A program made the position numbers and the translations under genes. Below, in pieces: positions 1 through 21,846 of a stretch of DNA of 21,846 nucleotides. The notes under the pieces are model-generated. The model saw nothing but the letters and a program-made list of their open reading frames with translations. It did no database searches and had not been told where the DNA came from. The DNA lies in assembly GCF_000808015.1 (NCBI RefSeq), contig NZ_JWHR01000045.1:1-21846 (forward strand), written 5' to 3'. The stretch is from Terrisporobacter othiniensis. GTDB lineage: Bacteria > Bacillota > Clostridia > Peptostreptococcales > Peptostreptococcaceae. Each line of letters begins with the position of its first letter. Position 1 is the stretch's first letter.

Positions 1-127
1 TGAGTAAACTTTTTCAACGTTTATTCCTATATTTTCTACCAGATTATTTATTTTTTCCTCGATCAAAGATATATCATCATTTTCTTTTATAAAATTTCTA
101 AGCTTATCTATTTCTTCCCTAATTGCA
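1..127. repeat. Terminal direct repeat, left copy (contig closure overlap)
   Basis: The first 127 bases are identical to the last 127 (21720-21846). The repeat lies inside selA, whose reading frame is restored when the two copies are merged. A 127-base exact overlap is what a de Bruijn assembler with k=127 leaves on a circular contig, so I read it as an assembly overlap and not a biological repeat. Confidence 0.95.
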
Positions 128-234
128 TCTACAACCACATCCCTGTGATGATTATTTATTAAATTTATAATTTCAGGTTTTTCTAATAAAACATCAACTT
201 TAGGTATATTTCTAAATAATATATTTTTATTCAT
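1..234 (-). CDS. selA: L-seryl-tRNA(Sec) selenium transferase SelA, N-terminal part (gene crosses the contig junction)
   Basis: This is the first 78 codons of SelA. It starts at the ATG whose first base is 234 and reads MNKNILFRNIPKVDVLLEKP, a typical SelA N-terminal domain that helps bind tRNA(Sec) and form the decamer. The frame runs to base 1 and continues, after removal of the 127-base overlap, into the long part at 20556-21846. It is the second gene of a sel operon: the selD stop is 63 bases upstream. Joined, the protein is 465 aa, the usual SelA length. I am confident because the two parts share the overlap in the same frame. Confidence 0.93.
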   Translation of the reverse strand, partial: MNKNILFRNIPKVDVLLEKPEIINLINNHHRDVVVDAIREEIDKLRNFIKENDDISLIEEKINNLVENIGINVEKVYS

Positions 235-297
235 ATCTCACTCAAGACCTTTCCCCTTTTACTCAAAACCCTATTTAGTAATTTAAATTTTAACTAC

Positions 298-1350
298 TTA
301 AAGACCTTTGATTAAATTAATACTCTTTTCTTGTTTTTCTATTACTCTTCCTATAATGGCAACTTTCGTATCCATATTTTTATCTTCAAAATCTTTCATA
401 ATATTTTCAACTTCATTTTCTGGTAATGTAATTAAAAGACCTCCAGAAGTTTGTGGATCGTATAATACATCTATGAAATATTCTTCTATATTTTCGCTAT
501 TTACGTCATTTGATATATAATCTTTGTTGTTATAAGTTCCAGCAGGTACTAGACCCATTTTAGCAAAATCTAGAGCTCCATCAATGTATGGTACTTTTTG
601 TACATCTATTTCAAAAGTAACTTTAGAACTAGATGCCATTTCCATAGCATGTCCAGCAAGACCGAATCCTGTTATATCTGTACATGCGCTTATATTGTGA
701 TTTTCTATAACTTCTTTAGCCTTCTTATTAAGTGATGTCATAACTGTTACAACCTCATCTATATGAGACTGTTCAGCCATTTCAGCCTTTATTGCTGTAT
801 TTATAAGGCCACTTCCTATTTGTTTTGTAAGGATTATTATATCTCCTGGATTTGAACCATAATTTTTAAATATTTTATTTGGATTTACAAAACCAGTTAC
901 GCTAAGGCCATATTTAGGTTCATCATCTTGAATAGAGTGTCCTCCAGCAAGTATTGCACCAGATTCCATAACCTTAGAGGCTCCGCCTTCTAAAATTCTT
1001 CCTAATATTTTCGGATCTAAGCAATTTGGAAATCCAACTATATTTAAAGCTGTTTTTGGTTCTCCTCCCATTGCGTAAACGTCACTTAAAGAGTTCGCCG
1101 CTGCTATTTGTCCAAATAAATATGGATCATCGACAATTGGAGTGAAAAAATCCAGTGTCTGAATTAATGCAAGATCATCACTTACTTTATAAATTGCTGC
1201 ATCATCACTAGTTTCCACACCTACTAATAAGTTTTCATCATGAAACTTTGGTAAATTGCCCAAAACTTGAGCAAGGGTCCCAGGACCTATTTTAGCCGCT
1301 CAGCCAGCAGTTTTTGTCATATGTGTTAATTTTATATCTTCATTCATCAT
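298..1350 (-). CDS. selD: Selenide, water dikinase SelD (selenophosphate synthetase), itself a selenoprotein with Sec17
   Basis: SelD makes selenophosphate from selenide and ATP, the selenium donor for SelA. The obvious open frame starts at 1263 (MGNLPKF), but the gene extends upstream through an in-frame TGA at 1300-1302 to an ATG at 1350 (a second ATG at 1347 is possible). The N-terminus then reads TKTAGUAAKIGPG, with Sec at residue 17, the position of the catalytic Cys17 of E. coli SelD. A SECIS-like hairpin follows the TGA. The rest has the expected AIR-synthase-like fold: DDAAIYK, the GGEP segment, LAGGHSI, DITGFGLAGHA and DPQTSGGLL. Total 350 aa, the family length. The ribosome site is AAAGGA, 8 bases upstream. 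It is the first gene of the operon with selA. Since SelD needs Sec for its own synthesis, its expression depends on the pathway it supplies. Confidence 0.95.
1276..1302 (-). promoter_or_regulatory. UGA selenocysteine codon of selD with a SECIS-like hairpin
   Basis: The in-frame TGA is at 1300-1302. Twelve bases downstream the transcript can form GGTC-CTGG-GACC (1276-1287), a short stem with GG in the apical loop, at the spacing expected for a bacterial SECIS recognised by SelB. The stem is short, so the assignment rests on position and on the SelD homology. Confidence 0.6.
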
Positions 1351-1424
1351 ATTTTTTTCCTTTTCTATAATTATTAAATTTATATATAAATTTATCACTT
1401 CTACTAAATTACTTATAGAAATAT

Positions 1425-2510: not shown

Positions 2511-2581
2511 AACCAATGGTTATACAAATTGTTAAACCAATGGTTATGCAAATTGTTAAACCAATGGTTTTACCATTTGTT
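2511..2581. repeat. Operator/centromere array 1: six 11-bp palindromes phased every 12 bp
   Basis: The units fit AACMAWTKGTT (M=A/C, K=G/T, W=A/T), each an odd palindrome around a central A/T. Examples are AACCAATGGTT and ACAAATTGT. Counting from base 2511, the centres fall at offsets 6, 18, 30, 42, 54 and 66, exactly 12 bp apart. An array upstream of a small parA with an RHH partner is the usual place for a type Ib centromere and autoregulatory operator. Confidence 0.85.
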
Positions 2582-2604
2582 AAAGTATAAAAAACAACTA
2601 CAAT
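2577..2604 (+). promoter_or_regulatory. Putative parA promoter overlapping the operator array
   Basis: TTGTTA (2577-2582), a 16-base spacer and TACAAT (2599-2604) form a plausible sigma-A promoter. The -35 box lies inside the last palindrome of array 1, so binding there should repress it. Confidence 0.55.
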
Positions 2605-2622: not shown

Positions 2623-2671
2623 TTAACCAATTGTTATACCAATTAAAAAACAAATTGTTGTACCAATGGTT
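2623..2671. repeat. Operator/centromere array 2: four palindromes phased every 12 bp
   Basis: ACCAATTGT, a degenerate unit, ACAAATTGT and ACCAATGGT have centres 12 bp apart. The block sits between the putative parA -10 box and the parA ribosome site, so a bound protein would also block the early transcript. Confidence 0.8.
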
Positions 2672-2695
2672 ATTTTCACAAAAGGAGATGGGAAA

Positions 2696-3502
2696 GTGAA
2701 GATAGTAAGTTTTTTCAATGTAAAAGGTGGAGTAGGAAAGACTACTCTAACAATTCTAAGTGCCATAGCTCTTAGCAAAGAAGGATCTAGCGTTTTAATT
2801 ATAGATGCAGATACACAGGCAAACTTAACTCAGTTTTTATACAAAGTTTCACATAGTGACAAAACTATGTTTGACGGCTTAGCTGATAATTTAAGTGCCG
2901 AAGAATTAATAATAAAATCACCTTGCGAAAGATATAAAAACATAGATATAATCCCTTCAGATTTATCTTTATCTGTACTTAGTGAATATTTAACTACAAA
3001 AACTAATCGTGAAAAGTCTGTGTGGAGATGGTTCAAATACAATGTGGACTCTCTAAGTAACTATGACTACATATTCGTGGATTTATCACCATCTTACGAT
3101 TTAATTGCCAGAAACTTCATGCTTTGTTCTGATTCCATAATAACTCCTATTGCTTATCAAGATATAGCAAGCATTAGAGGTTGCGAGTTATTTTACTTAA
3201 AATACAACCAAGATTTAGAAGATATGGAGATGGAAAACATGGCAAAAAGAGCCGTGGTTATAAACTCTTACACTTCTAGGAAACTATCTACCGGCGATAT
3301 ATTCTGGGAAAAATTAAATGAATTTGAACACATAAAAAAAGATTTAATTAATGCAAAAATATCTGATACAACAGTAATAAAGAATGCAATTCTTTCTAAA
3401 TTAGACATCGATGATTATTGCAGAAAAATAAAAAAATCTCATAAAGTTAGAGAGGAATTTAAAGAAGTTATAAGTGAATTAAAAGAAAGGGATGTGTTAT
3501 AG
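2696..3502 (+). CDS. parA: ParA-family partition ATPase (type Ib)
   Basis: This ParA/Soj-like P-loop ATPase distributes plasmid copies to daughter cells by dynamic binding to the nucleoid. The deviant Walker A KGGVGKTT is at residues 10-17, the DADTQAN segment at about 40-46 and Walker B (YIFVDLSPS) near 112-120. I chose the GTG at 2696 because AGGAG stands 8 bases upstream. The ATG at 2666 would add 10 residues encoded by the operator array. At 268 aa without an N-terminal helix-turn-helix it fits the small type Ib class, which pairs with a ribbon-helix-helix centromere-binding protein. The next gene, starting at the last base of the parA stop, encodes exactly such a protein. Confidence 0.93.
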   Translation: MKIVSFFNVKGGVGKTTLTILSAIALSKEGSSVLIIDADTQANLTQFLYKVSHSDKTMFDGLADNLSAEELIIKSPCERYKNIDIIPSDLSLSVLSEYLTTKTNREKSVWRWFKYNVDSLSNYDYIFVDLSPSYDLIARNFMLCSDSIITPIAYQDIASIRGCELFYLKYNQDLEDMEMENMAKRAVVINSYTSRKLSTGDIFWEKLNEFEHIKKDLINAKISDTTVIKNAILSKLDIDDYCRKIKKSHKVREEFKEVISELKERDVL

Positions 3503-3906
3503 TGGGACTAGATAAATTTTTAAAAGATGATAAAAAAGAAGAATTAGTTTTAACAAAAAAAGACTATAAATCTAAGGTAAATAACATAGTAAAAAATACT
3601 TTTGAAAAAGAAAACTTAAATTTATTACAAATAGAAAATGAAACTACAACTAGTAAGAAAGTTCCTATGAGTGTTTATTTTGAAAAAGAAGATTTAGACT
3701 TACTAAAGGCTATTGCTTTTGAAAAAAATACAACTGTGAACAAAGTTCTTATGAGTATCATAAAAGATCCTCTAAAAACTACAAAGGAAAATTTACCAGC
3801 TAGTTTTAATATAAACGAAAAAGCAAAGGAATACGAAGTTAATAGTAAAAAAAGAAAAGTAGAAAAAAAAGTTGAAACAAGAGGTAGAAAAAAGAAAATA
3901 AAGTAG
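3502..3906 (+). CDS. Ribbon-helix-helix DNA-binding partition partner (ParB/ParG-like)
   Basis: A 134-aa basic protein with a GTG start overlapping the parA TAG by one base and a ribosome site AAGGGATG. Residues 54-60 (VPMSVYF) look like the RHH beta strand, followed by helices at about 62-75 and 77-88, the MetJ/Arc dimer fold. The N-terminal 50 residues are charged and probably flexible; in this family such a tail contacts ParA. The C-terminus is Lys/Arg-rich and ends in an RGRKKK motif like an AT-hook. RHH dimers contact short palindromes and line up on phased arrays, so it is the best candidate to bind the 12-bp arrays at 2511-2671, 4583-4629 and 20523-20557. The match to those sites is inferred from context. 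Confidence 0.85.
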   Translation: MGLDKFLKDDKKEELVLTKKDYKSKVNNIVKNTFEKENLNLLQIENETTTSKKVPMSVYFEKEDLDLLKAIAFEKNTTVNKVLMSIIKDPLKTTKENLPASFNINEKAKEYEVNSKKRKVEKKVETRGRKKKIK

Positions 3907-4167: not shown

Positions 4168-4193
4168 TAAAAAGCGAGAAATACCTTATATTT

Positions 4194-4558: not shown

Positions 4559-4587
4559 TTTGTATATCACTCTATTAATTATAACAA
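4559..4587 (-). promoter_or_regulatory. Putative promoter overlapping operator array 3
   Basis: On the minus strand TTGTTA (4587-4582), a 17-base spacer and TACAAA (4564-4559). As at parA, the -35 box is part of the terminal palindrome of the array. It would drive the small membrane-protein locus. Confidence 0.45.
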
Positions 4588-4629
4588 ATGGTTATACCAA
4601 TTGTTTTACAATTTGTATAACCATTTGTT
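4583..4629. repeat. Operator array 3: four palindromes phased every 12 bp
   Basis: AACAAATGGTT, ACCAATTGT, ACAATTTGT and ACCATTTGT have centres exactly 12 bp apart. Same consensus as the arrays upstream of parA. It lies just past the 3' end of the serine recombinase. Confidence 0.85.
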
Positions 4630-4640
4630 ATATATATCAT

Positions 4641-5219
4641 TTATATTTCAATACTTTCACGTTCTTTCTTAGCTCTAATTAAAGTACTTTTAGAAATACC
4701 AGTCATAAGTCCCACCTCTTTATAGGAATGCGTTTCAAGTAATTTTAAAGCATGTGAAATTTGCTTTTTAGTAAACTTTTTTGGTCTTCCTTCTCTATAA
4801 TCATCACTTGCTTTTGCCAGCTCTTTTCCCGATGAAGTTCTCTCTACAATCATAGATCTTTCAAACTGAGAAAAAGCAAGAAGACATGTTATTATTAAAT
4901 CACCCATGGGAGAATTCTCTATAAGTCCCATATTTAATATATGTATATTAATTTCTCTTTCTTGTAAACTCTTAACTATCTCTAACCCCTCTTTTGTGCT
5001 TCTACATAACCTATCCAGTTTTGTGGTAACTAATGTATCTCCTTTTTTTAATTTATCTAATATTTCATTAAACACAGGTCTATCAGATTTAATTCCGCTA
5101 ATTTGTTCTTTATAAATTACTGCATTTTCATATCTCCCTAGAATTTCTCTTTCTTGCAATTCTAAAGAATTATTATCCAATTGACTTCTTGAACTAACTC
5201 TACAATATCCGTATATCAT
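4641..5219 (-). CDS. Small serine recombinase (resolvase/invertase family)
   Basis: A 192-aa site-specific recombinase. The start at 5219 is chosen for [10 protein letters not shown], with GAGAGGA 7-8 bases upstream; a longer frame to 5267 would add an unlikely tail. The catalytic serine is in the RVSS motif (Ser9/Ser10). The conserved arginine region TKLDRLCRS and the segment [13 protein letters not shown] mark the catalytic domain. Residues from about 145 to the end form a helix-turn-helix domain ([17 protein letters not shown]). On plasmids such enzymes usually resolve multimers, which helps partition. The inverted repeats just upstream of the gene could be its target. Confidence 0.9.
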
Positions 5220-5296
5220 GTTATATCCTCTCCATTTTATATACAAAATATAGATTTCTTTTGACACTATATTTTGATACTCTCTTATACATTAAT

Positions 5297-5416: not shown

Positions 5417-5617
5417 TTATAATATAGTTACGTTTTCTGCTTGAGGACCTCTAGCACCTTTAACTATATTAAAGTTTACTTTTTGGCCTTCTTCTAATGA
5501 TTTAAACCCATCAGTTTGTATAGCTGAAAAATGTACGAATACATCATCTCCACCTTCTACTGATATAAAACCAAATCCTTTTTCATTGTTAAACCATTTT
5601 ACTATTCCATTATTCAT
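5417..5617 (-). CDS. Cold-shock protein, CspA family
   Basis: A 66-aa single OB-fold RNA/DNA chaperone with both nucleic-acid motifs: RNP1 KGFGFI (13-18) and RNP2 VFVHF (26-30). The length and the GxVKWFN start are typical. The ribosome site AGGAG is 9 bases upstream and a hairpin sits next to it. It has its own terminator and appears monocistronic. Why a plasmid keeps it is not shown by the sequence; Csp genes do occur on plasmids and phages. Confidence 0.95.
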
Positions 5618-5979: not shown

Positions 5980-6249
5980 CTACATATTATTTTTTAAATA
6001 TTGTGTATCTAAGATTTCCATAACATAACTTAATATATTCCCCTCATTATCTTTAAAATGAAGTGTTTTCTTGCTCGCTTTCTTGTCAATATTTTTGCAG
6101 TTTTTTAATGAATAAGTATTATATGGTGCAATTTCATTACAAAGTTTGTTTTCCATTGCTTGTAATATGTCGCCAGATTGTTTTCCTTCTACTTCATACT
6201 TTTCTAGTTCCTTACCATAAAGTTCTTTAAAACTAATTATACATTTCAT
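5980..6249 (-). CDS. Hypothetical small protein (89 aa)
   Basis: Probably a real gene: AAGGAGGAG stands 7 bases upstream of the ATG and the frame is complete. The product is a soluble, charged protein with three cysteines (residues 3, 37 and 51) and no membrane segment or known motif. It lies downstream of the primase/helicase on the same strand with a 155-base gap, so it may be a plasmid maintenance gene. No family is recognised. Confidence 0.7.
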   Translation of the reverse strand: MKCIISFKELYGKELEKYEVEGKQSGDILQAMENKLCNEIAPYNTYSLKNCKNIDKKASKKTLHFKDNEGNILSYVMEILDTQYLKNNM

Positions 6250-6404: not shown

Positions 6405-9137
6405 TTAACCTTCATTGTAATCTATTGGCAATATATTATCCATTTCAAGTTTTTTAACCTTATCTATTTTTAAGATAAACATCATTTTATGTTTTATAAT
6501 ATAATCTGGAAGTCCATTTTTATCTTCTACTAAAGTTTTTATTTTTACTGCCCTATAATGTTTTTTAGGATCTAAGTCTGCAATATATTCTGATTTGCTT
6601 ATCATTTTAATAAAAGTATTGTAATTTAAAAGTTTTTCACTATCATTTTTATATTGTTTATAGTAGTTATTTAGTTTATCATAAATAGACTTAAAATCAA
6701 AAGCTATATGAATATTATCAGGTAAAATCCTATAATGAACATTTTCTTCTAACCTTATTTTTCTATCTGGTATGTAAATTAAATTATTAATATCTTCAAG
6801 TAATTTTTCGTAGTCACTCTTAAATTCATTTTGGCTTTCTTCCAATACATTGCATTTCAAATTATTAATGATTATGTTAGATGCTTCTTCCAAGTTAATT
6901 ATATTATTCATATTAACACCTAAAGATTCAAAGGTATTATATATAAGTTCTAGACCCATCATTGTATATATAGCTGTATTTATTTCAGTTGAATTACTTA
7001 AATATAGCTTTTCATCAAAATCATATTTAAATCTTGTTACTAAATACTCATTATCAAATGCTCCATCAATATAATAATTCAGAACTCTCAAGTATAAACT
7101 TTTTGAAAATCTTCTTAACAAATTTGAGCCATCTTCACTATTACATAAAAACTCTACAGATTCTTTACCTTCTCTAGTAAAATCACTTCTGGTATACCAT
7201 ACTATATTGGATCTACTTTTTATAGCTGTTTCTTGAATTTCTTCGTCTCCTGATATTATTAGAGATGCATTATAAGTAAATTTCTGCAATGTTGAATTTT
7301 CAGTAACTTTAGTATTTTCATATCCTTCTACAATAGCACGGATATGATTAGATAGGAAATTTATTTTACAATTGTCTACTTTTGAAATATTAACTTCATC
7401 TAAAAATACAGGTAAATAAGTTTCATCAAAGTATTTAAGCAGTTCAAAATCTGTTAATACCGATAAACTTATTCCTGGGTTTGTGTCATTAAATAATAGC
7501 CTTAAAATTTTAAGGACTTTACTTTTACCACTTTTACTTTCCCCCAAATCTTGAAGTATTGGCAAATTGTTCATAGAAGACTCTCTAGCAAAAGTATTTA
7601 ATATATTTGCAGCACCAAGTCCCAGGGTATTATATATATTTTCCTTTGAATTAAAATTAAACAAGTATTTACTTAATATTTCTGCTTCATCTTTATTTAA
7701 AATATCAAGATTGGTAAAGTCAATATTATGAATTGTATTTATTGATTTTCTTGTAATATCAAATTCTCCATTGGATTTTAATGTACCTTTATTTGTAACA
7801 AGAACATACTCATCATTTATTTTTCTTATTCCTGATCTTGTAAATATCGATATATCTTCTTTAATGAAGTAATTTATAATCCATTGATGAAGTTTTGTTA
7901 AGTCTTGTATTTCTCCATAAAAAATATAGTCAATTCCTAAGTATCTTCTAAAAATTTTCAAATCAGAAAAACACAATCTAGCATCTGCTTCAATAATTGA
8001 CTGTCTATGATTTGATTTAATGTTAAGCTTTATAATTTGATCTTTATTATCTTCATTTCTATATAATGTAACATCTATTATTTGAAAGTTTGTTAAATAA
8101 CGTCTACTTTCTTTCACTTCTTCATTTTCTATTTTATCTATAACTTCATATATTCCATCTTCATCTTGTTGTAGAGTATTTTTATCTAATATATTTAAAG
8201 ATTTTTTTACTATTTGTAAAAGTTCCTTGGATGTTTTACCAGATTCTAACCAATCTGTAACGTCTTTATTTTTACCATCACCTATATTTTCAAGCCCTGG
8301 CAAATCAATTATTTTTAGTCCTTTACAACATTTTTTTAATTTTTCTACTATAAAGTTTTTAAACTCTTGCCCTGATCTTCCGCTGTCTCCTATGAATATT
8401 ACTTTGGCATTTTTTAAATCTTCATCATAAGAACTTTTCCATTTTTTTGTGCAAATGGTTGTGGCAGGAAGATTTATTTTGCTTAAAGTTTCCACATCTT
8501 TTTCACCTTCAACAAAAAATATCCAATCATCTTTTGATATGGCTTTTTTTATTTCTAGTAAATTATAAAGAACCTTTTTACATTGTTCGAAATACTTATG
8601 GTCTCCATATTTATAACCTATATCCATTTCTATCAAAGACTTTGTTATAAAATGCTTTTTACCAAATAAATTTTTATATTTTATTTTACAATATAATGGC
8701 TTTTTATCTTCATCAAAGTAAATATAAATTTCTTCTAAATTATAAGTTTCTTTGTTTTTTATTATTGTTGACTGATTTGTTTTTATAAAATTTTTAAAGT
8801 TTTCAACTTTATTGTCGTTGATAGTACTGTATTTCAATTCCCTACCTAAGATGTCATAAGCTTTTCTTAAGGCTGTTATATTATCTATGTTCTCCATCTT
8901 ACAAATAAAGTTTATAATATCTCCTTGTTCTCCACATCCAAAACAATGATAAATGGCTCGATTTCCTTTGTCGCTGAGCCTTAAACTTGGCGTTTTATCG
9001 TTGTGAAATACACAGTTTGTATAATATCCACTATTATCTTTTTTTAAATTCATGTTGTAGTTTTGCATAATTGATATTAAGCAATTTAATGATCTTATTT
9101 CATCTACTGCATTTTTAAAAGTATCTTTGTTTTCCAT
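6405..9137 (-). CDS. Primase/helicase-like replication protein (CHC2 zinc finger, TOPRIM, P-loop ATPase)
   Basis: A 910-aa protein and the best candidate for the plasmid replication protein. Residues 42-68 form a CHC2 primase zinc finger (C42-x2-H45-x19-C65-x2-C68, with HCFGCGEQGD). A TOPRIM-like domain covers about 200-300 (FVEGEKD with E210, then GDSGRSG near 250). A P-loop ATPase follows, with Walker A GESKSGKS at 532-539 and Walker B LPVFLDEVN at 575-583, as in phage and plasmid primase-helicases of the DUF927 kind. The ATG at 9137 has AGGTGG 8 bases upstream, and a stop lies a few codons before it. No other Rep is visible, so replication presumably depends on this protein. A 31-codon leader overlaps its start. 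Confidence 0.88.
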   Translation of the reverse strand: MENKDTFKNAVDEIRSLNCLISIMQNYNMNLKKDNSGYYTNCVFHNDKTPSLRLSDKGNRAIYHCFGCGEQGDIINFICKMENIDNITALRKAYDILGRELKYSTINDNKVENFKNFIKTNQSTIIKNKETYNLEEIYIYFDEDKKPLYCKIKYKNLFGKKHFITKSLIEMDIGYKYGDHKYFEQCKKVLYNLLEIKKAISKDDWIFFVEGEKDVETLSKINLPATTICTKKWKSSYDEDLKNAKVIFIGDSGRSGQEFKNFIVEKLKKCCKGLKIIDLPGLENIGDGKNKDVTDWLESGKTSKELLQIVKKSLNILDKNTLQQDEDGIYEVIDKIENEEVKESRRYLTNFQIIDVTLYRNEDNKDQIIKLNIKSNHRQSIIEADARLCFSDLKIFRRYLGIDYIFYGEIQDLTKLHQWIINYFIKEDISIFTRSGIRKINDEYVLVTNKGTLKSNGEFDITRKSINTIHNIDFTNLDILNKDEAEILSKYLFNFNSKENIYNTLGLGAANILNTFARESSMNNLPILQDLGESKSGKSKVLKILRLLFNDTNPGISLSVLTDFELLKYFDETYLPVFLDEVNISKVDNCKINFLSNHIRAIVEGYENTKVTENSTLQKFTYNASLIISGDEEIQETAIKSRSNIVWYTRSDFTREGKESVEFLCNSEDGSNLLRRFSKSLYLRVLNYYIDGAFDNEYLVTRFKYDFDEKLYLSNSTEINTAIYTMMGLELIYNTFESLGVNMNNIINLEEASNIIINNLKCNVLEESQNEFKSDYEKLLEDINNLIYIPDRKIRLEENVHYRILPDNIHIAFDFKSIYDKLNNYYKQYKNDSEKLLNYNTFIKMISKSEYIADLDPKKHYRAVKIKTLVEDKNGLPDYIIKHKMMFILKIDKVKKLEMDNILPIDYNEG

Positions 9138-12624: not shown

Positions 12625-14085
12625 TTAATCTATAACAAATTCTACGTAGATGTCTTTTCCTTCTTTAAGGTTTATAACAAGTCCACCTTCATCAGTAAAT
12701 GATGTAAAACTAGTTTCTACTGTTTCTACCTTAGGTTCTTCTACTGATTGAGCTCTAACTAATACTTCTTCAACTTCTTCTCCAAGTTGTGGAACTGTTT
12801 TAGATGCAGTCATATATCTTATTACATCTTTGCCTACTGTTTGTAATACATGGTCTGTTTGGTGATGAACTTCTACATTCATCTTTGGAGCAGATCCCAT
12901 AACTGTATTTGAACAGTCTGTACAGTTTCCTATAAGTATATGTTTAGCACCAGCTTTTTTAATGTTCATAACTTTAAGTGCTTGACCTGGACAGTTTCCT
13001 GGATTTTCACATTTTAAGTTTCCTTTAACATCTGCTGCTTGCTTACATTTTTGAACACAAACTACTTCAGCATTCATTTTTTTAGCTAAGTCTTGCATTC
13101 TTTCTTCATTACCACCACAAGCACATACTAAAAGTCCCATTTTTTCACCTTTTAAATCTTCAAAAGGCTGAGTTACTATTATTCCACCTGTAGTTTTAGT
13201 TATTGGATCATCTAACTCACAAGCTTTACCAGTAAATGGTCCACCCATGATTACTTCTCCATACTCTCCATCTATTCCACCAGCTCTTTCTATTAATTCT
13301 TTAACAGAAGTACCAACTGGAACATCCATAAATACATGAGGATCAGTACCACCGTTTAGCTTTCCAACAACTGTAACGTTTTTAGAAAAACATGGTTTTT
13401 TAAGCTCTATTGCTTCAGCAACTCTTTGAAGAGTTTCCACGTTTATAACTACAGCATCTGCTACTGATGGTAAATCAGTTGGTTGAAGTAATATTCCTAA
13501 GACTTCTCTTACAACTGCTCTTTCCTCACCCATTGGGTAAATATCTGGAAGTAAATGTATATCTAAAGAATTATCACCCTTAGTACCTTCAACTAAAGCA
13601 TCAACTGCCTTTTGGTTTTTAGCCTTAATTGCGAATATTCCTTTTTCTGCTTGACAAATTTCCATAACATATTTAAGACCTCTTATAGTTAACTCTGTGT
13701 TATCTACCATTTGGTCTACATTATGATGAAGTAATGGTTCACATTCAGCAGCATTAACAAGTATGTATTTTACCTTTGTTCCAAGTTTTATAGCTGTTGG
13801 GAATCCTGCACCACCCATACCTACTACACCAGCATCTTTTATAAGTTGAAGTTTATCTTCTCCTTCTAACTCAACGAACTCTTCTGGTTGATCTTCATCT
13901 TTTTCTATTATTATGGCATCTTCAGTTATTTCTTTAACTTCTCCATATACACTAGAGAATATGTTAGCACCAAGTCCTGTAGGCTTAGCTATTAGAGAAC
14001 CCTTTTTTACCCTATCTCCAACTTTAACTATTGCCTCACAAGGAGCTCCAACATGTTGTCTAAGTAATATTTTTTGTAATCCCAT
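12625..14085 (-). CDS. prdC: PrdC, RnfC-like electron-transfer protein for proline reductase
   Basis: PrdC resembles RnfC/NuoF-type subunits and is thought to pass electrons from NADH to proline reductase. The 486-aa protein starts at the ATG at 14085, 8 bases after GGGGG; a GTG at 14094 is less likely. N-terminus: a barrel-sandwich domain (QHVGAPCEAIVKVGDRV). Then a glycine-rich nucleotide-binding segment (GVVGMGGAGFPTAIKL, about 85-100) and AAECEPLLHHNV. A cysteine-rich C-terminal part holds CACGG, CVQKCK, CENPGNC and the pair GNCTDCSNT. PrdC of other clostridia is described as a selenoprotein; no in-frame TGA is seen here, so this is apparently a Cys form. The last 20 residues resemble a PrdA segment. 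Confidence 0.93.
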   Translation of the reverse strand: MGLQKILLRQHVGAPCEAIVKVGDRVKKGSLIAKPTGLGANIFSSVYGEVKEITEDAIIIEKDEDQPEEFVELEGEDKLQLIKDAGVVGMGGAGFPTAIKLGTKVKYILVNAAECEPLLHHNVDQMVDNTELTIRGLKYVMEICQAEKGIFAIKAKNQKAVDALVEGTKGDNSLDIHLLPDIYPMGEERAVVREVLGILLQPTDLPSVADAVVINVETLQRVAEAIELKKPCFSKNVTVVGKLNGGTDPHVFMDVPVGTSVKELIERAGGIDGEYGEVIMGGPFTGKACELDDPITKTTGGIIVTQPFEDLKGEKMGLLVCACGGNEERMQDLAKKMNAEVVCVQKCKQAADVKGNLKCENPGNCPGQALKVMNIKKAGAKHILIGNCTDCSNTVMGSAPKMNVEVHHQTDHVLQTVGKDVIRYMTASKTVPQLGEEVEEVLVRAQSVEEPKVETVETSFTSFTDEGGLVINLKEGKDIYVEFVID

Positions 14086-14112
14086 TAAGTTCACCCCCTA
14101 AAAATATAAAGC

Positions 14113-14272: not shown

Positions 14273-14370
14273 TGGCGGGAGAATGTGGGAATCGAACCCA
14301 CCTAGGATGCTACTAACACCCCACACTGGTTTTGAAGACCAGGAGGCACACCAGTTACCTATCTACTCCC
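14273..14370 (-). tRNA. selC: Selenocysteine tRNA, anticodon UCA
   Basis: 98 bases with CCA encoded at 14275-14273. The anticodon arm CTGGT-CTTCAAA-ACCAG has UCA in the loop. The D stem is AGGTA/TGCCT. A long variable arm is present (GGGTG/CATCC), as is the T arm GTGGG-TTCGATT-CCCAC, which together with the length are diagnostic of tRNA(Sec). The acceptor arm is unusual: GGGAG pairs with CTCCC, but of the next three positions only A7-U pairs, position 6 being U-U and position 8 G-A. It is the decoding partner for the UGA codons of prdB and selD and lies between the divergent prd groups. Confidence 0.95.
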
Positions 14371-14770: not shown

Positions 14771-15535
14771 ATGAGTGAAGAAATCAACTTACGTCGCCTT
14801 GTGATTAAGTCATACCATGTAAAGGAAGTAGAATTTGGAACAGAAAATAACGTTTTTCTAGATGGAAAACTTACTGTCTGCAAGGATTTATTAAAAGATC
14901 TAATAGAATCAGAGCCTTTAATAAAAGATATAGACATTCAAATAATAAAACCAGGAGATCATGATAGATTTACAAACACTATGATGGATATTATTCCAAT
15001 TTCTACAAAGGTTCTTGGTAAAATTGGAGAAGGAATAACTCATACTTTAACAGGTGTGTATGTTATGCTTACAGGTGTTGATGAAAAAGGAATACAAACT
15101 GCTGAGTTTGGTTCTTCTGAGGGTAATTTAAAGGAACAACTTTTCTTAAATAGACCAGGTACTCCTGGAGACAATGACTACATAATTTCATTTGATGTAA
15201 CTCTTGCAGAAGGTCAAGGACAAGTTAGACCAGGACCTACTGCCGCACATAGAGCTTGTGATAAGTTCTGTAGCGAATTTAGAACAAAATTAAAAAAATT
15301 AAACGGTCACAAATTTACTGAACGTCATGAATTTTATGACAAAGTAAGGCCTGGTAAGAAAAAAGTAGTTATTATAAAACAAGTGGCAGGCCAAGGTGCT
15401 ATGTATGATACTCAGCTATTCTCTCATGAGCCAAGTGCTATGGAAGGTGGAAGAAGTATTATAGATATGGGTAATGTACCTATGATTGTAACACCAAATG
15501 AATATAGAGACGGCGCTCTTCGCTGTATGTGCTAA
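14771..15535 (+). CDS. prdD: PrdD, proline reductase-associated protein (PrdA N-part paralogue)
   Basis: 254 aa, colinear with PrdA residues of about 165-410. Shared blocks include HYKITEVKRG/YHVKEVEFGT, MMDIIPI/IMDVQPI, EFGSSEG, VRPGPTAAHRA/ERPGPLAAHAA and VRPGKKKVVIIKQ. It ends in GALRCMC, at the point where PrdA reads ALTC at its cleavage cysteine, so the protein stops where PrdA would be cut. It lacks the PrdA N-terminal 160 residues. AAGGAGG lies 7 bases upstream of the start. The role of PrdD is not established in this family; a part in PrdA maturation or a second complex is possible. Transcribed with prdE from its own promoter, divergent from selC and prdC. Confidence 0.92.
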   Translation: MSEEINLRRLVIKSYHVKEVEFGTENNVFLDGKLTVCKDLLKDLIESEPLIKDIDIQIIKPGDHDRFTNTMMDIIPISTKVLGKIGEGITHTLTGVYVMLTGVDEKGIQTAEFGSSEGNLKEQLFLNRPGTPGDNDYIISFDVTLAEGQGQVRPGPTAAHRACDKFCSEFRTKLKKLNGHKFTERHEFYDKVRPGKKKVVIIKQVAGQGAMYDTQLFSHEPSAMEGGRSIIDMGNVPMIVTPNEYRDGALRCMC

Positions 15536-15547: not shown

Positions 15548-16018
15548 ATGGGAATAGGACCATCTACTAAAGAAACTACTTTGCATCACTTTAGAGATCC
15601 TCTACTTGATGTAGTAAGTAACGATGAAGATATAGATTTACTAGGAATTATAGTTGTGGGAACTCCACAAGATAACGAAGATAAATTATTTGTTGGAACA
15701 AAGGCTGCTTCTTGGGCTGAGGCCATGAGAGCAGATGGAGCAATACTTTCATGTGACGGTTGGGGAAACTCTCACGTTGACTTTGCAAACACTGTGGAAC
15801 AAGTTGCAACTAGAGGAATCCCTGTTGTCGGGCTTACTTTTGTTGGAACTGTGGCTCAGTTTGTTGTTGTAAATGAATATATGGATACTATAGTTGATAT
15901 GAATAAAAATCCTGAAGGAATTGAAAGTGAAATTGTTGGTGAAAATGAAGTAACTGAGTTAGAGGCTAGAAAGGCTCTTGCATTTTTGAAATTGAAAATG
16001 AGAAAATACGGAAAATAG
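15548..16018 (+). CDS. prdE: PrdE, proline reductase-associated protein (PrdA C-part paralogue)
   Basis: 156 aa, colinear with PrdA from Cys411 onward: MGIGPSTKE against CIGPASKE, then DLLGIIVVGTPQ against DLCGVIFVGSPQ and ATRGIPVVGLTF against GMRGIPVVGMSF. Met stands where PrdA has the cleavage Cys-Ile, so no pyruvoyl group can form in the PrdA way. It begins 12 bases after prdD with AAGGAGGT overlapping the prdD stop, so the two are translated together. PrdD and PrdE probably form one PrdA-like heteromer. Compared with PrdA it lacks the last 40 or so residues. Confidence 0.92.
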   Translation: MGIGPSTKETTLHHFRDPLLDVVSNDEDIDLLGIIVVGTPQDNEDKLFVGTKAASWAEAMRADGAILSCDGWGNSHVDFANTVEQVATRGIPVVGLTFVGTVAQFVVVNEYMDTIVDMNKNPEGIESEIVGENEVTELEARKALAFLKLKMRKYGK

Positions 16019-16204: not shown

Positions 16205-16441
16205 TTACATCATTATCTCATGTATATTATTTATATCTAAATTTTTATCATTTATAAGGTCTTCTATTTTCTCTTTGTCATCTTTATTACAAAGCCATGA
16301 AAGACCGCATCCAGCTGATATTTGTCTTGGTACTGGTATTAATCTTCCTGGTACGTTTTCACTTTTGCAGGCTTTTTCCATCGCCATTGCTCCTGTTGTT
16401 GTGTTAAAAGTTACTATTAGTCTTAATTGTTTTTCTCTCAT
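16205..16441 (-). CDS. DUF3343 (putative Se/S carrier-like) protein
   Basis: 78 aa, the small domain named DUF3343 or putative Se/S carrier, often found next to selenium genes and fused in YedF-like proteins. The core reads TFNTTTGAMAMEKACK, then the conserved GRLIPVPRQISAGCGLSW with Cys45, followed by Cys51, which could bind selenium or sulfur. It is the last gene of the sel operon, 11 bases after the desulfurase stop, with AAGGTGAT as ribosome site. A role in carrying selenium from the desulfurase to SelD is likely from context but not proven. Confidence 0.88.
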   Translation of the reverse strand: MREKQLRLIVTFNTTTGAMAMEKACKSENVPGRLIPVPRQISAGCGLSWLCNKDDKEKIEDLINDKNLDINNIHEIMM

Positions 16442-16452: not shown

Positions 16453-17595
16453 TTATTCATTATAAGTTGCTGCTATTTCTTTAACTGCATTTATAGCAGT
16501 GTCTATTTCTTCTTCTGTATTGTAGTGGGAAAAAGAAAATCTTACGGCACCTTGATCTACTGTGTTCATGGCTTTATGCATAAGTGGGGCGCAGTGAGCT
16601 CCCGGTCTTGTGGAGATGTTATAGTATAAACTTAGTTCATCAGAAAATGCTGCAGAATCAATGTCTCCAATGTTAAAAGTCACAATAGCCGCTCTTTTAT
16701 TTTCAAAGTTTCCATAGATTTTAATATCTTTAATATCTTTTATTCCATTATAAAATCTAAACATTAACTCTTCTTCACGATTCCTGATATTTTCTATTCC
16801 TTCTTCTTTTAAGTAATCCAGTGCAGCATTTAATCCTGCTATGGCATGTCCATTTAATGTTCCTGCTTCCAACATGGTTGGCATGACATCTGGGTGAGTT
16901 TTTGAAAAAGTATTAACTCCACTTCCTCCAACCTTTAAAGGCCTAATATTTACATTTTCTCTCACACAAAGTCCTCCAGTTCCTTGAGGTCCAAGCAACC
17001 CTTTATGACCTGTAAAACAAAGAATATCTATGTTCATATCTTGCATATCTATAGGAAAAACACCTGCACTTTGTGATGCATCTACTATAAATACTAGGTT
17101 ATACTTTTTAGCTATTTCTCCTATTTTTTTCACGTCCAATAGGTTTCCTACCAAATTAGACGCATGAGTGCAAACTATAGCTTTCGTATTATCTTTTATT
17201 AAACTTTCAAAATCATCATAATTTATATTTCCATTTTCGTCGCATTCTACAACAGAAAGTTCCATTCCTTTTGACTCTAATTCATATAAAGGACGAAGTA
17301 CTGAGTTATGCTCTAGAGACGTAGTTATTGCATGGTCAGATCTAGTTAATACTCCTTTTATAGCAGTGTTTAAACTTTCAGTTGAGTTACATGTAAAAGC
17401 AACTCTTGATGGATTTTGCAAATTAAATAAATCTGAAATTTTTTCTCTTGTATCGTAAATTACTCTAGATGCATCTAAAGCTGCTTCATTTGCTCCACGT
17501 CCTGCATTTCCCATATGTGTCATGGCATTAACTACTGCATCTATAACACACTGTGGTTTTTTCATAGTTGTAGCTGCATTATCTAAATATATCAT
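16453..17595 (-). CDS. Cysteine desulfurase-like PLP enzyme (class V aminotransferase fold)
   Basis: 380 aa, NifS/CsdB-related. It has YLDNAATT at the start, the PLP aspartate region VDASQSAG (171-178), the PLP lysine in FTGHKG (Lys198) and the reactive cysteine in RPGAHCAP (Cys335). It belongs to the short desulfurases of the kind found in clostridial selenium operons. Such enzymes release selenide or sulfide from selenocysteine or cysteine, which here would feed SelD. It lies 14 bases after the LysR gene, with AAAGGTGAT before the ATG. The precise substrate cannot be read from the sequence. Confidence 0.9.
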   Translation of the reverse strand: MIYLDNAATTMKKPQCVIDAVVNAMTHMGNAGRGANEAALDASRVIYDTREKISDLFNLQNPSRVAFTCNSTESLNTAIKGVLTRSDHAITTSLEHNSVLRPLYELESKGMELSVVECDENGNINYDDFESLIKDNTKAIVCTHASNLVGNLLDVKKIGEIAKKYNLVFIVDASQSAGVFPIDMQDMNIDILCFTGHKGLLGPQGTGGLCVRENVNIRPLKVGGSGVNTFSKTHPDVMPTMLEAGTLNGHAIAGLNAALDYLKEEGIENIRNREEELMFRFYNGIKDIKDIKIYGNFENKRAAIVTFNIGDIDSAAFSDELSLYYNISTRPGAHCAPLMHKAMNTVDQGAVRFSFSHYNTEEEIDTAINAVKEIAATYNE

Positions 17596-17609: not shown

Positions 17610-18503
17610 CTAGTTAAAAAATTCTCTTATAAATTTAATAAATTTAAGTGCACATTTTGACATATACATTTCTTTATTTCTAACTATATATAAGTTTCTG
17701 TACATGTCCATTTCTTCGAATTCAAATAGCAATACTTTGTTGTCTTTTGCGAAATCCTCTACAGCCAAGTTTGATACTATGGAAATGCCCATATTATTTT
17801 GTACTGATTTTTTTATGGCTTCTATGGAGTTTAGTGTTGCTATTACATTTAAGTTATTTATATCAAAATTATGAGCTTTTAAAAATTCTCTTATTTCTTT
17901 TCTCGTTCCTGAGCCCTCTTCTCTCATTATTATTGGCTCTTTTAATAAATCTTTTACATGGAATCCATCTTTTTTCATTTTTATATATTTGTCATTTACA
18001 GGTGTTATAATAACTAACTTATCTTTATAAAACGGTTCAAATATTAAAGATGAGTTTTCTATTTCTGTTCCAACAAGACCTACTTCCACTTCTTTGTTTA
18101 TTATTTGATTTATAACTTCGCTAGAATCCCCTTGAAGTATTTTTAGCTCAGTTTTATTTTTTCTTATATATCTTGGTAAAACTTCTGGAAGTATATACTG
18201 TTCTGGAATAGTTGATGCTCCCAAAGTTAATAAATTACTATCTTCGCTTTTCACATTAAATTCTTGTAATATTGTATTTTGTAAGTTTAATATTTGTTTT
18301 GCATAAGTATATAGCCTTTTTCCATCTTCTGTTGGATGTACATCCTTTGTTGTTCTTACAAGAAGTTGAGTATTTAACTCTTTTTCTAGTAAAGAAATAT
18401 GAGAAGATATTGTAGGCTGTGTTAAAAATAATTTTTTTGCAGCCTGAGAAAAACTTCTACTCTCTATAATTAACGCAAATGATTCTAATTGTTTTAAATT
18501 CAT
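17610..18503 (-). CDS. LysR-type regulator of the selenium metabolism-associated group
   Basis: 297 aa: an N-terminal winged helix-turn-helix (residues 1-60, MNLKQLESFALIIESRSFSQ then AAKKLFLTQPTISSHI) and a periplasmic-binding-like effector domain (about 90-290; TLGASTIPEQYILP, EEGSGTRKEI). LysR proteins of this type sit beside selB or selD in many clostridia and are annotated as selenium metabolism-associated. The start at 18503 follows the selB stop after a single base; the longer frame from 18533 would lie inside selB. GGTGG upstream may serve as ribosome site. Targets are unknown; candidates are the selD and prdD upstream regions. Confidence 0.88.
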   Translation of the reverse strand: MNLKQLESFALIIESRSFSQAAKKLFLTQPTISSHISLLEKELNTQLLVRTTKDVHPTEDGKRLYTYAKQILNLQNTILQEFNVKSEDSNLLTLGASTIPEQYILPEVLPRYIRKNKTELKILQGDSSEVINQIINKEVEVGLVGTEIENSSLIFEPFYKDKLVIITPVNDKYIKMKKDGFHVKDLLKEPIIMREEGSGTRKEIREFLKAHNFDINNLNVIATLNSIEAIKKSVQNNMGISIVSNLAVEDFAKDNKVLLFEFEEMDMYRNLYIVRNKEMYMSKCALKFIKFIREFFN

Positions 18504-18504: not shown

Positions 18505-20412
18505 TTAATATGCCACCCTTTCACTTTCTGCACCGTTTTTTCTTGTTATCTTCATGTTGTCAAAGTATTCAAGCATTGGTTTGGCACTTTTTCTTGATGT
18601 GTTTAGAGCATCTCTAAGTTCAGAAATCGTAATTAGATTATTTTTTTCTAATTTTTCACGAACTACTATTTCTGCTTTATCCATAAGAGATTTTAGTGTA
18701 AACATTTCATCATTTATTTTCACTATTTTTTCCTCATCTATTAAAACATTTAACACATCTCTTACTATATTTTCATCTATATTAAAGTTTATTTCACTAA
18801 GTCTTACAAAATCAAATTCTGCTTTTTTATAAGTATTTACTAAAGTTTTCTCAACATTTTGGAACGTTTTATCTTTATTTATTTCAAAGTCATTTAAACT
18901 TAAGTATTCTTTGTATTTTTTTATTTCATTTTCTAAGATAAATTTATAGATAATTTGATCAAAAACATTTTGTTTTATCTTAGAATACAACTTTGTTTTA
19001 ATAAGAGATTTTCCAACACCAAATTTATATGGATTTTCATTATGGAAATTCTTTATAAACTCTATAGTTTCTCTTTTTAATCTCATTTCTTCGCTGCTAT
19101 GATACACATAAACATCTTTTTTCATTTCATAAGTTAAAACTAAGTTTTCTTCTTTTAATTCACTTATACATTCATTTAGTTCTTCTATAGAAAATCCTGT
19201 TAGCTTTCCTATTTCTTTTATAGTTATCATTTCTGGATGTTTTTTAACTAATAACTCAACTATATCACTGTGAGATCCTTCTTCTTTTCGTTTTATTTCT
19301 TCCAGTTGTGCCTTATTAAAAGGTGTTTTCTTTGTAGGATTGGCATCTAATATAACTCCTCCTCCTACAGTTTCAAGTGGTGAATAGAAACGAACTATAA
19401 ATTTATCTCCCCTTCTTACGGCTATTTTTTCTTCTAATCTAAGTTGGGCATAGCAAGAATCTCCTGGCGCTGCTTCTTCTGTATCTAAAAGTACAGCTCT
19501 ACATAAAACCTCTGAAGTTCCTGTAAATAAATGAAGTCTACATCTATTTGATAAAATTCTCTCACTGGAATTTAGAACATTTAATTTTACATCTAGCATC
19601 ATAGTATCTTCCAAAGAATTTGGTGGTGCTAACACATATCCTCTTTTTATTTCGTCTTTTTTAAGATTTGAAATATTTATGGCACTTCTTTGGCCTGCAA
19701 AACATTCCTTCACATCTTTTCCATGAACTTGAATGCTTCTTATTTTTACTTTTTTTCCAGTAGGATAAATTTCCAACTCATCGTCCTTTTTTATACTTCC
19801 TGAGATTAAAGTTCCAGTTACTATAGTTCCAAAGCCTGATATACTAAAACTTCTGTCTATTGGAAGACGAGATATGGTATTTATATCTTTTTCATTTAAT
19901 TCATCTTTTGTCATGTGAACTATTTCTTTTATTAAATCAGCTATGCCTTCCCCTGTCATAGCTGATACTTCTATTATATTTGCTTTTTCAAATACTGAAC
20001 CGATTAATTCTTCTTTGATTTCTTCTTTTACTAACTCTTTCCACTCATCGTCTACTAAGTCACATTTATTTAAAACAACTATACTTTTATCTACACCGAG
20101 TTGGCTCATAATATCTACGTGCTCACGAGTTTGTGGCATCATGCCCTCATCTGCTGCAACAACAAGCATAACAAGATCCATTCCTATAACTCCTGCCAAC
20201 ATGTTATTTACAAACTTTTCATGACCTGGAACATCTATTATTCCAGCTCTGTCTCCTGATGGTAAATCAAAATAAGTAAATCCAAGATCTATGGTAATTC
20301 CTCTTCTTTTTTCTTCTTCCCATCTATCTGTTTCTTTACCTGTCAAGGCTCTAATTAAAGCAGTTTTTCCGTGGTCTATATGCCCTGCTGTTCCGATTAT
20401 AATATTCTTCAT
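18505..20412 (-). CDS. selB: Selenocysteine-specific elongation factor SelB
   Basis: 635 aa. SelB brings Sec-tRNA(Sec) to UGA codons marked by a SECIS. GTPase motifs: GHIDHGKT (G1, residues 10-17), [10 protein letters not shown] (G2), DVPGHEKF (G3) and NKCDLV (G4). Domain II follows with [12 protein letters not shown], then domain III. The C-terminal third is a chain of winged-helix domains that bind the SECIS hairpin. The start at 20412 has AAGGGGAGC upstream; a longer frame from 20442 adds ten residues and a poorer site. It is separated from selA by 143 bases that contain the operator array and a possible promoter, so selB and the three genes after it may be a separate unit. Confidence 0.97.
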
Positions 20413-20500
20413 TTTTGCTCCCCTTTTGCTATTTTTACTCAAAAACAGTTATAAAACATTTACTCATTCATTTTTCACTTCTAAAATTTTTTTGTAAAAT

Positions 20501-20528
20501 ACTGTATTTCACTAGATTTTATAACCAA
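20501..20528 (-). promoter_or_regulatory. Putative promoter of selB overlapping operator array 4
   Basis: On the minus strand TTGGTT (20528-20523), a 16-base spacer and TACAGT (20506-20501). The layout matches the parA promoter (TTGTTA, 16, TACAAT), with the -35 box inside the terminal palindrome of the array. Confidence 0.45.
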
Positions 20529-20557
20529 TTGTTAAACAAATTGTTTTACCATTGGTT
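20523..20557. repeat. Operator array 4: three palindromes phased every 12 bp between selA and selB
   Basis: AACCAATTGTT, ACAAATTGT and ACCATTGGT have centres exactly 12 bp apart, the same consensus as the arrays at parA. The selA stop codon (20556-20558) lies in its edge. Confidence 0.85.
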
Positions 20558-21846
20558 ATTTTAAAACATTAATAATTTTTTGTACTAATACATCTATTTC
20601 ATCTTCTAAAACTGTTCTCATGTCTAATATCAACTTATCTTCACTTATTCTTCCTACAACTGGATTTTCTCCAAGTCTTAGTTTTTCTTCTAAGGCTGCA
20701 GTTGACATATTTTTAGGCATTATAGTTACGCATTTACTTTTTATTCTTTCTGCTGGTAAAGATCCTCCACCAATTTGAGATAAGGTATCTTCAATTTCTA
20801 CCTGTGCCACATCTTTTAAATCATTTAATTTTTCATATAATTTATTTGCACTTTCTTCTATTTCCTTTATGTCTTTAGTTATAAGTGAAAGCACCGGTAT
20901 ATTTTTTATGGCATCTTCTTCACTTAAGTACTCATGTAATATCATTTCAAGTATTGTTGCAGTGAACTTATCTATTCTAAAAGCCCTTGTAAGAGGGTTT
21001 TTCTTCATCTTGTCGATGTATTTCTTCTTTCCAACAATAATTCCTGCCTGAGGGCCTCCTAGGAGCTTGTCACCTGAGAAAGAAACTATGTCTACACCGG
21101 CTTTTATTGAATCTTGCACAGTCGGTTCATATTCTAAACCGTACTTACTAAGATCAACTAAAACTCCACTACCTATATCTTCTATGACTGGAATCTCCTT
21201 TTCTTTTCCTAGTTTACAAAGTTCATCAATTGATACACTTTCAGTAAATCCTAATATTTTAAAGTTGCTTGTATGGACTTTTAAGAAGGCTCCTGTATTT
21301 TCAGAAATTGCATCTTCATAGTCTTCTAAATGTGTTTTATTTGTTGTTCCTATTTCCACTAAGTGAGCCTTAGAACTTTTCATTACATCTGGAATTCTAA
21401 ATTTCCCTCCAACTTCAACAAGTTCACCTCTAGACACTATAACTTCCTTATTTTCTGCCATAGATGATAAAACAAGCATTACAGCCGCTGCATTATTATT
21501 TACCGCCATGGCACACTCTGCACCAGTTATTTTGCAGATTAACTTTTCAAAATGAGAGTAACGCTCTCCTCTTTTTCCTTCTTCCAAATTGTACTCCAAA
21601 TTAGAGTAACTTGTCACAACTTCACTAAGATAATCAGCATGTTTTTTAGAAATTATAGCTCTTCCTAAGTTTGTATGAAGTATTGTTCCTGTTCCATTTA
21701 TAACCTTTCTCAAATTATATGAGTAAACTTTTTCAACGTTTATTCCTATATTTTCTACCAGATTATTTATTTTTTCCTCGATCAAAGATATATCATCATT
21801 TTCTTTTATAAAATTTCTAAGCTTATCTATTTCTTCCCTAATTGCA
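20556..21846 (-). CDS. selA: L-seryl-tRNA(Sec) selenium transferase SelA, main part (continues at bases 1-234)
   Basis: SelA uses PLP and selenophosphate to turn Ser-tRNA(Sec) into Sec-tRNA(Sec). This part carries the whole catalytic core: RKVINGTGTILHTNLGRA, the AVNNNAAAVML segment, VEIGTTNKTH and the PLP lysine in FSGDKLLGGPQAG, which is Lys296 of the joined protein (Lys295 in E. coli). A shorter frame starting at 21785 (MIEEK) is an artefact of the cut; the real start is at base 234 after circularising. Bases 21720-21846 duplicate 1-127. Full protein 465 aa. No missing motif or frameshift. Confidence 0.95.
   Translation of the reverse strand, partial: AIREEIDKLRNFIKENDDISLIEEKINNLVENIGINVEKVYSYNLRKVINGTGTILHTNLGRAIISKKHADYLSEVVTSYSNLEYNLEEGKRGERYSHFEKLICKITGAECAMAVNNNAAAVMLVLSSMAENKEVIVSRGELVEVGGKFRIPDVMKSSKAHLVEIGTTNKTHLEDYEDAISENTGAFLKVHTSNFKILGFTESVSIDELCKLGKEKEIPVIEDIGSGVLVDLSKYGLEYEPTVQDSIKAGVDIVSFSGDKLLGGPQAGIIVGKKKYIDKMKKNPLTRAFRIDKFTATILEMILHEYLSEEDAIKNIPVLSLITKDIKEIEESANKLYEKLNDLKDVAQVEIEDTLSQIGGGSLPAERIKSKCVTIMPKNMSTAALEEKLRLGENPVVGRISEDKLILDMRTVLEDEIDVLVQKIINVLK
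21720..21846. repeat. Terminal direct repeat, right copy (contig closure overlap)
   Basis: Exact copy of bases 1-127. Removing one copy gives a circle of 21,719 bp. Confidence 0.95.

Follow-up and report, generated by a model that had tools for sequence, protein, structure and literature searches.

A 21,846-nucleotide contig of Terrisporobacter othiniensis (NZ_JWHR01000045.1), analysed here in full and hereafter called the window, is a circular plasmid that carries the genes for decoding UGA as selenocysteine (Sec) together with those of D-proline reductase, and is a member of the already published family of 21-kb Terrisporobacter plasmids. The window ends in a direct repeat of 127 nucleotides (1-127 and 21720-21846, 100% identical), and closing it at this repeat yields a circle of 21,719 bp on which selA forms a single open frame of 466 codons spanning the junction. 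We consider it likely, given the gene content and the location of the sel genes, that the plasmid is the only source of this apparatus in its hosts, and that selenoenzymes encoded on the chromosome would depend on it as well. Its Sec-specific elongation factor, SelB, is, judging by sequence comparison, probably a foreign protein that displaced the native one. The plasmid itself having been described before, what is new relative to the literature we found is the sole-copy arrangement of the sel genes combined with UGA-containing genes on the chromosome; a search of the open-licence literature found no statement that a Terrisporobacter chromosome lacks sel genes.

The Sec-decoding genes and their clients

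All four genes of bacterial Sec decoding are present in the window, each on the minus strand: selB (18505..20412; Pfam SelB domains), selA (main part 20556..21846, with the start at 1..234 across the junction; Pfam SelA, 533.7 bits), selD (298..1350; NCBIfam selD, 395.5 bits with TGA read as Sec) and selC (14273..14370), a tRNA-Sec with anticodon UCA that was identified by ARAGORN and by Rfam RF01852 (70.4 bits, gathering score 47). The plasmid tRNA-Sec is identical to that of the T. glycolicus plasmid pTG1 and 81-86% identical to three tRNA-Sec of Peptostreptococcaceae. Two client genes in the window contain one in-frame UGA each, namely, selD, a predicted selenoprotein (codon 17), and prdB (codon 151; 9487..10212, minus strand), which encodes a D-proline reductase subunit and matches TIGR04483 at 425.5 bits with TGA as Sec. 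The other genes of the D-proline reductase cluster are prdA, encoding the proprotein (10639..12477, minus; TIGR04480, 975.9 bits), prdC, encoding an electron-transfer protein, without an in-frame UGA (12625..14094, minus; TIGR04481, 658.2 bits), prdD (14771..15535, plus; TIGR04482, 384.5 bits) and prdE (15548..16018, plus), which was named by its position after prdD and a PrdA-like match. The prd cluster of C. difficile includes the prdF racemase and the prdR regulator; neither is found among the open reading frames (ORFs) of the window that matched a family. In Terrisporobacter, prdF sits on the chromosome and no PrdR ortholog was found, according to Boer 2023 (PMC10564238).

The location of the sel genes was traced in six Terrisporobacter genomes (G001-G006), of which only G003 is complete, the others being drafts. 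G003 consists of a chromosome contig of 4,039,277 bp and a pTG1 contig of 21,319 bp, the sizes given for T. glycolicus DSM 1288 and its plasmid in Boer 2023 (PMC10564238). Its single SelA, its single SelB and SelD above the cut-off and its single 70.4-bit tRNA-Sec are all encoded on the 21,319-bp plasmid, and profile searches of the chromosome detected no SelA, SelB or SelD above the cut-off and no second tRNA-Sec of 70.4 bits. The chromosomal matches to the SelB model reach at most 185 bits, below the cut-off of 242 bits, and resemble other translation GTPases; six chromosomal matches to RF01852 in G001-G003 score 50.2 bits, above the gathering score, and three of the six, as read, are tRNA-Ser(UGA). 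Two full GrdA genes and one FdhF gene lie on the same chromosome and contain a single in-frame TGA apiece; a GrdB-like frame there includes one TGA and a UGTC motif. Thus, to the question raised in the first-pass annotation, whether the host chromosome has sel genes of its own, the answer in the one complete relative is that none were found. Because this chromosome contains UGA-dependent selenoprotein genes without decoding genes, the plasmid is likely the sole source of decoding, and consequently the enzymes of glycine reduction and acetogenesis likely depend on it.

The drafts G001 and G002 agree with G003 in that their sel genes are located on contigs of 21,415 and 22,012 bp. In G004, pieces of the plasmid are found on two contigs (C45 and C307), with SelD cut by the contig ends. 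G005 encodes a GrdA with TGA, yet contains no SelA, SelB, SelD or tRNA-Sec above the cut-off; probably, the plasmid is absent from this assembly rather than from the cell.

The probable origin of SelB and inferred dependence on the plasmid

SelB is nearly ubiquitous in the Peptostreptococcaceae, exceeding the cut-off in 68 of 71 genomes (the misses being G005, G006 and G051), with at least 13 of the genes located on contigs over 1 Mb. Phylogenetic analysis of rpoB (60 of 63 genomes, with G012, G013 and G016 dropped and G004 lacking an rpoB match) puts Terrisporobacter well inside this family. The plasmid SelB is only 40-47% identical to SelB of 62 other Peptostreptococcaceae genomes (of 64 others above the cut-off; G013 and G019 were dropped), and the next closest database proteins, 61-62% identical, are of Lachnospiraceae type, from sources including Faecalicatena contorta, Bariatricus, C. 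scindens and Lachnospiraceae bacteria (of the seven rows of this type in the tree, three are named in this way). When only the N-terminal 500 amino acids (aa) are compared, it is 63-65% identical to the seven Lachnospiraceae-type rows and at most 53% identical to 28 Peptostreptococcaceae rows and 29 rows drawn from the whole class, among which 5 are also Peptostreptococcaceae genomes. In the tree, which does not include G005 and G006, the plasmid and Lachnospiraceae-type SelB form a joint clade with a support of 100 in the Shimodaira-Hasegawa-like approximate likelihood ratio test, and forcing the plasmid SelB to the rpoB sister group of Terrisporobacter is rejected by the approximately unbiased (AU) test (p-AU 4e-8; 61 of 74 rows kept, 13 dropped). 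The SelB tree supports an earlier horizontal acquisition of the decoding system, or at least of some of it. Displacement of the native protein by a foreign one is well supported for SelB and may extend to the rest of the system; we infer the direction of the transfer. A class-wide search with SelA covered 391 genomes and gave 47-59% identity in the 58 further genomes that had a match, and the 120 matches listed in a database search for a Lachnospiraceae sister of SelA were all at least 88% identical, with no outside row among them. In three Peptostreptococcaceae genomes, the 11-12 kb surrounding selB contained no match to csd or LysR.

Several results weigh against a foreign SelB on a plasmid that is the only source of decoding. 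A single complete genome was searched, the others being drafts of which the completeness is not given; G004 lacks a tRNA-Sec or FdhF above the cut-off and G005 lacks FdhF. Seven database entries (P0028, P0091, P0093, P0094, P0101, P0103 and P0108) represent SelB of 77-93% identity on contigs of 23-76 kb, which may be larger plasmids or chromosomal forms in divergent relatives (the longest contig is 76 kb for P0108, with SelB 77% identical, and 63 kb for P0103, with SelB at 83%). Candidate Sec insertion sequence (SECIS) elements fold as hairpins after the UGA, but in the eight sequences analysed they are, by folding energy, no more stable than shuffled sequences (z from -0.8 to 0.7, with simple shuffles as the control). 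Grouping of the plasmid SelB with all Peptostreptococcaceae rows, which themselves do not form one clade, is rejected only at p-AU 0.018, and although SelA falls outside the Peptostreptococcaceae in its tree, its membership in the family is not rejected (p-AU 0.19).

The SelA result would fit a history in which an operon native to the family passed by vertical descent from the chromosome to the plasmid, where SelB simply evolved fast. The similarity of ParA to ParA of Paraclostridium plasmids and of PrdA to the full-length-type matches in Peptostreptococcaceae (64-74% identity) points in the same direction. Acceleration alone, however, would not raise the identity to one distant group, and over the same N-terminal part the plasmid SelB is closer to the Lachnospiraceae-type proteins than to any of the family and class rows; together with the fully supported clade and the rejection of the placement with the rpoB sister group, this makes a purely vertical history unlikely.

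Still less probable, in our view, is that the plasmid is an accessory element serving mainly its own PrdB, with an unrecognised or divergent Sec-decoding system on the chromosome, such that plasmid loss would cost the cell proline reduction only. A set in which UGA-dependent PrdB and SelD lie beside the sel genes is indeed coherent by itself, and odd homologues can escape searches with hidden Markov models. The searches of G003 for SelA, SelB, SelD and tRNA-Sec nevertheless returned the plasmid copies with no second one above the cut-off, and the three that were read of the six chromosomal 50.2-bit matches are tRNA-Ser(UGA).

The favoured explanation, a plasmid on which the cell depends for all Sec decoding, can be spelled out as a predicted sequence of steps. 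SelD, which is itself UGA-dependent, would make selenophosphate; SelA would convert Ser-tRNA-Sec into Sec-tRNA-Sec on the selC product of the plasmid; and SelB would bring it to the UGAs of the plasmid genes prdB and selD and, presumably, of the chromosomal grdA, grdB and fdhF. The desulfurase and the DUF3343 protein probably contribute to selenium supply and the LysR protein to regulation, whereas partition is probably ensured by ParA, its 134-aa neighbour and the flanking repeats, and replication by the CHC2 protein. Having the only decoding genes of the cell on a plasmid would select for plasmid retention. Judging by the phylogeny of SelB, the system appears to derive wholly or partly from a Lachnospiraceae-like source and to have displaced the sel operon present in the other Peptostreptococcaceae.

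A more specific version of this scenario, which we regard as slightly better than an even call, holds that the family's chromosomal decoding system gave way to a multicopy 21-kb circle with SelB of Lachnospiraceae type, and that this circle alone reads the UGAs of chromosomal formate dehydrogenase and glycine reductase. Loss of the plasmid would then hit acetogenesis and both Stickland reductases, and one lineage would have lost the plasmid, keeping a chromosomal scrap of it and showing none of those selenoproteins. That lineage is represented by the draft G006, which is placed in the Terrisporobacter clade by rpoB and in which no SelA, SelB, SelD, tRNA-Sec or FdhF above the cut-off and no GrdA were found. 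One of its contigs (C53, 16.6 kb) encodes, all on one strand (L107 8447-12803), a shortened primase, a DUF3343 protein, a desulfurase and an 89-aa protein. The primase is 57% identical to that of the plasmid over the longest aligned piece, with residues ~555-638 missing, and the desulfurase and the 89-aa protein are 88% and 73% identical to their plasmid counterparts, respectively. By our reading of the translations, lysine-biosynthesis-like genes flank this segment on one side and lrgAB/trpS-like genes on the other. We read these genes as a plasmid remnant that was kept in the chromosome after the rest had been lost; the absence of Sec in the draft G006 is provisional.

The two points that appear most worthy of follow-up are the presumed dependence of chromosomal selenoproteins on the plasmid and the foreign SelB. 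If both hold, the meaning of a codon in chromosomal genes of central energy metabolism would be supplied by a small plasmid only, which would provide a clean, curable test case for keeping, losing and replacing an expanded genetic code, and the displacement of a decoding system would become directly testable. Furthermore, genomes assembled without the plasmid would look Sec-negative yet carry UGA-interrupted selenoprotein genes, as the draft G005 does.

The plasmid family and comparable systems

The first-pass annotation had proposed to search plasmid databases for co-occurrence of sel, prd and parA. In the plasmid database PLSDB, the window has eight complete circular relatives with all of these, every one from Terrisporobacter, that cover 93-95% of it at 90.0-90.4% DNA identity. 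They share with the window the size of ~21-22 kb, the circular form and the content, and the gene order is the same in their annotation tables, from which an occasional gene is left out. The window itself has prdA-E and selA, selB, selC and selD in the published order, together with parA, a recombinase and a primase. The published members are pTM1, pTG1, the plasmids of T. petrolearius JCM 19845 and T. hibernicus, pTPHSE2, pTPELB1, pTPDSL1 and pTVTCOM1 (PMC10564238, PMC11253131). Boer 2023 (PMC10564238) describes the 21-kb plasmid, with its sel and prd genes listed, as exclusive to Terrisporobacter, and reports complete plasmids obtained from Nanopore and Illumina reads; four further Terrisporobacter plasmids are reported in a 2024 paper (PMC11253131).

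The window is a divergent member of the family, with segments 4127-4571, 5811-5978 and 16029-16205 unmatched in all eight relatives. Seventeen genes are common to all eight and evolve under purifying selection (ratio of nonsynonymous to synonymous substitution rates 0.02-0.26); the cold-shock gene, matched in five of the eight, is the sole exception among the scanned genes. Synonymous divergence from these relatives is 0.06-0.23 for prdA, prdB and prdC versus 0.42-0.56 for selA, selB and selD, a difference that could reflect either recombination or the codon bias that goes with high expression. The database cluster representing the SelB of the window (P0001) has 129 members, and its longest contig is 21,700 bases.

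The combination of sel and prd genes extends beyond this family. On some chromosomes of related Peptostreptococcaceae (G060, G061, G045 and G047, for example), prdA lies ~5-9 kb from selB, and in three of these genomes (G060, G045 and G047) selA, selB and the prd genes lie close together as in the window, here within one stretch of 14-15 kb, but on contigs of 0.5-1.2 Mb and with SelB 42-47% identical. Region R1 of Ligilactobacillus salivarius pMP1046A, as described in PMC4165912, likewise unites prdA, prdB, prdD, prdE, prdC, selA, selB, selD, a desulfurase-like gene, DUF3343 and tRNA-Sec, but the plasmid is 219.7 kb long, the cluster includes a prdF-type racemase and SelB is 34% identical. That paper's table lists the prdB of this plasmid (L113 5097-5822) as a probable pseudogene, whereas the current record annotates it as an intact PrdB; the pseudogene label probably arose from taking UGA for a stop. 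Enterococcus raffinosus pCX012922 also combines the sel and prd genes with DUF3343, a desulfurase-like gene and tRNA-Sec, but differs from the window in being a 985-kb replicon with a proline racemase, a different gene order and a SelB with 40% identity. On Sinorhizobium meliloti pSymA, the fdoGHI-selABCD region (PMC8124441) also combines Sec genes with a client enzyme, but this is a megaplasmid and the client, by the published description, is formate dehydrogenase. With sel and prd genes found together on chromosomes of relatives and, with tRNA-Sec, on the E. raffinosus and L. salivarius megaplasmids, the pairing recurs, and of its plasmid forms encountered in this analysis the 21-kb one is the most compact. 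The first-pass remark that no described example was known is contradicted by the two Terrisporobacter papers, and plasmids with sel genes and a client enzyme were on record in the form of pSymA and pMP1046A.

The compact, complete sel set with its client enzyme, and the joint presence of sel and prd genes on the Enterococcus and Ligilactobacillus megaplasmids, could be taken, as in the first-pass annotation, to indicate a present-day vehicle through which new hosts would gain an expanded genetic code together with a fermentation route in a single step. We consider this very improbable. The plasmid is typed as non-mobilizable in all eight relatives, and no relaxase or transfer genes were found by Pfam or PHROG matches among the scanned ORFs of the window. 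The only PLSDB records that cover at least 80% of the primase are the eight Terrisporobacter plasmids, and among 393 genomes of the order, beyond the three that bear the plasmid, only weaker relatives of the primase (65% or less) were detected. In addition, prdF, as noted above, is chromosomal (Boer 2023, PMC10564238). Present-day mobility thus finds no support in the typing or in the distribution of full-length primase relatives. A phage origin of the backbone was rejected: phrog_26824 matches the primase lengthwise, but in the 15 phage records listed, out of 81, the match covers 19-30% of the primase at 24-32% identity, and no relative was found among viral contigs scanned with SelB and with the primase.

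The first-pass claim of a circular plasmid of 21.7 kb was borne out. The idea that the circle was created in assembly, or that a k-mer overlap, which leaves a terminal repeat such as the 127-nucleotide one, closed a chromosomal region, can be dismissed for practical purposes, given that selA is unbroken over the junction and eight complete circular relatives exist, and that the longest contig measures 20.8-22.3 kb for 40 of the 120 SelA database entries listed and more (33 kb) for one (hand count). For pTM1, pTP1 and pTG1, Boer 2023 (PMC10564238) gives Illumina and Nanopore coverages 2.8-5.2 times as high as for the chromosome, and its complete plasmids from Nanopore and Illumina reads settle the concern about an artefact for the family.

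Other genes of the plasmid

The ORFs of the window, apart from short antisense ones, were scanned with Pfam, NCBIfam and PHROG, and these searches together with ARAGORN and Rfam confirmed the sel genes, LysR, desulfurase, prdA-E, parA-type and primase genes of the first-pass annotation. Between selB and the prd genes, on the minus strand, lie a LysR regulator of selenium metabolism (17610..18503; NF040786, LysR_Sec_metab, 356.8 bits, cut-off 250), a protein resembling cysteine desulfurase or selenocysteine lyase (16453..17595; TIGR01977, 446.4 bits, the SclA model being below the cut-off) and a 78-aa protein (16205..16441). The last was initially described as resembling a selenium or sulfur carrier; the ORF is present, its counterparts in the relatives are annotated as DUF3343, and it is a possible carrier, but it has no NCBIfam match. 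In the divergent plasmid of G004, a 195-aa membrane-protein-like ORF, YitT-like by our reading, is located between the DUF3343 gene and prdE (L089, C45, 6280-6867). Between prdB and prdA, a CBO2463-domain protein is encoded (10344..10622, minus; NF041553).

The putative partition region contains a parA-type ATPase gene (2666..3502, plus; Pfam AAA_31 and a ParA PHROG), the product of which is 71-78% identical to ParA of Paraclostridium plasmids, and an adjoining gene for a 134-aa protein (3502..3906, plus), which matches phrog_27746 of unknown function and, judging by its position, is a possible partition partner. Approximately three 24-nucleotide repeats precede parA (2511..2584), and a repeat search identified an inverted counterpart of 2510-2558 at 4582..4630, possibly marking a partition or origin site. 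The backbone further includes, on the minus strand, a serine recombinase (4641..5222, or from an upstream GTG at 5267; Pfam Resolvase and a DNA invertase PHROG), an 89-aa protein without a Pfam or PHROG match that is present in all eight relatives (5980..6249) and a 914-aa CHC2 primase, the likely replication protein (6405..9149; Pfam Zn_ribbon_DnaG, and phrog_26824 over residues 37-911).

A cold-shock-like protein is encoded by an ORF in a variable segment (5417..5617, minus). The surrounding region (5350-5720) matches eight Paraclostridium plasmids at 85-91% identity, a sign of exchange between plasmids. Boer 2023 gives this gene for T. mayombei only, yet several of the PLSDB tables of the relatives also list it. 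Finally, in large chromosomal tRNA arrays of the genomes searched, ARAGORN calls a tRNA-Pyl with anticodon CUA (L015 1723-1799 and L016 1247-1323), perhaps a misread tRNA-Arg.

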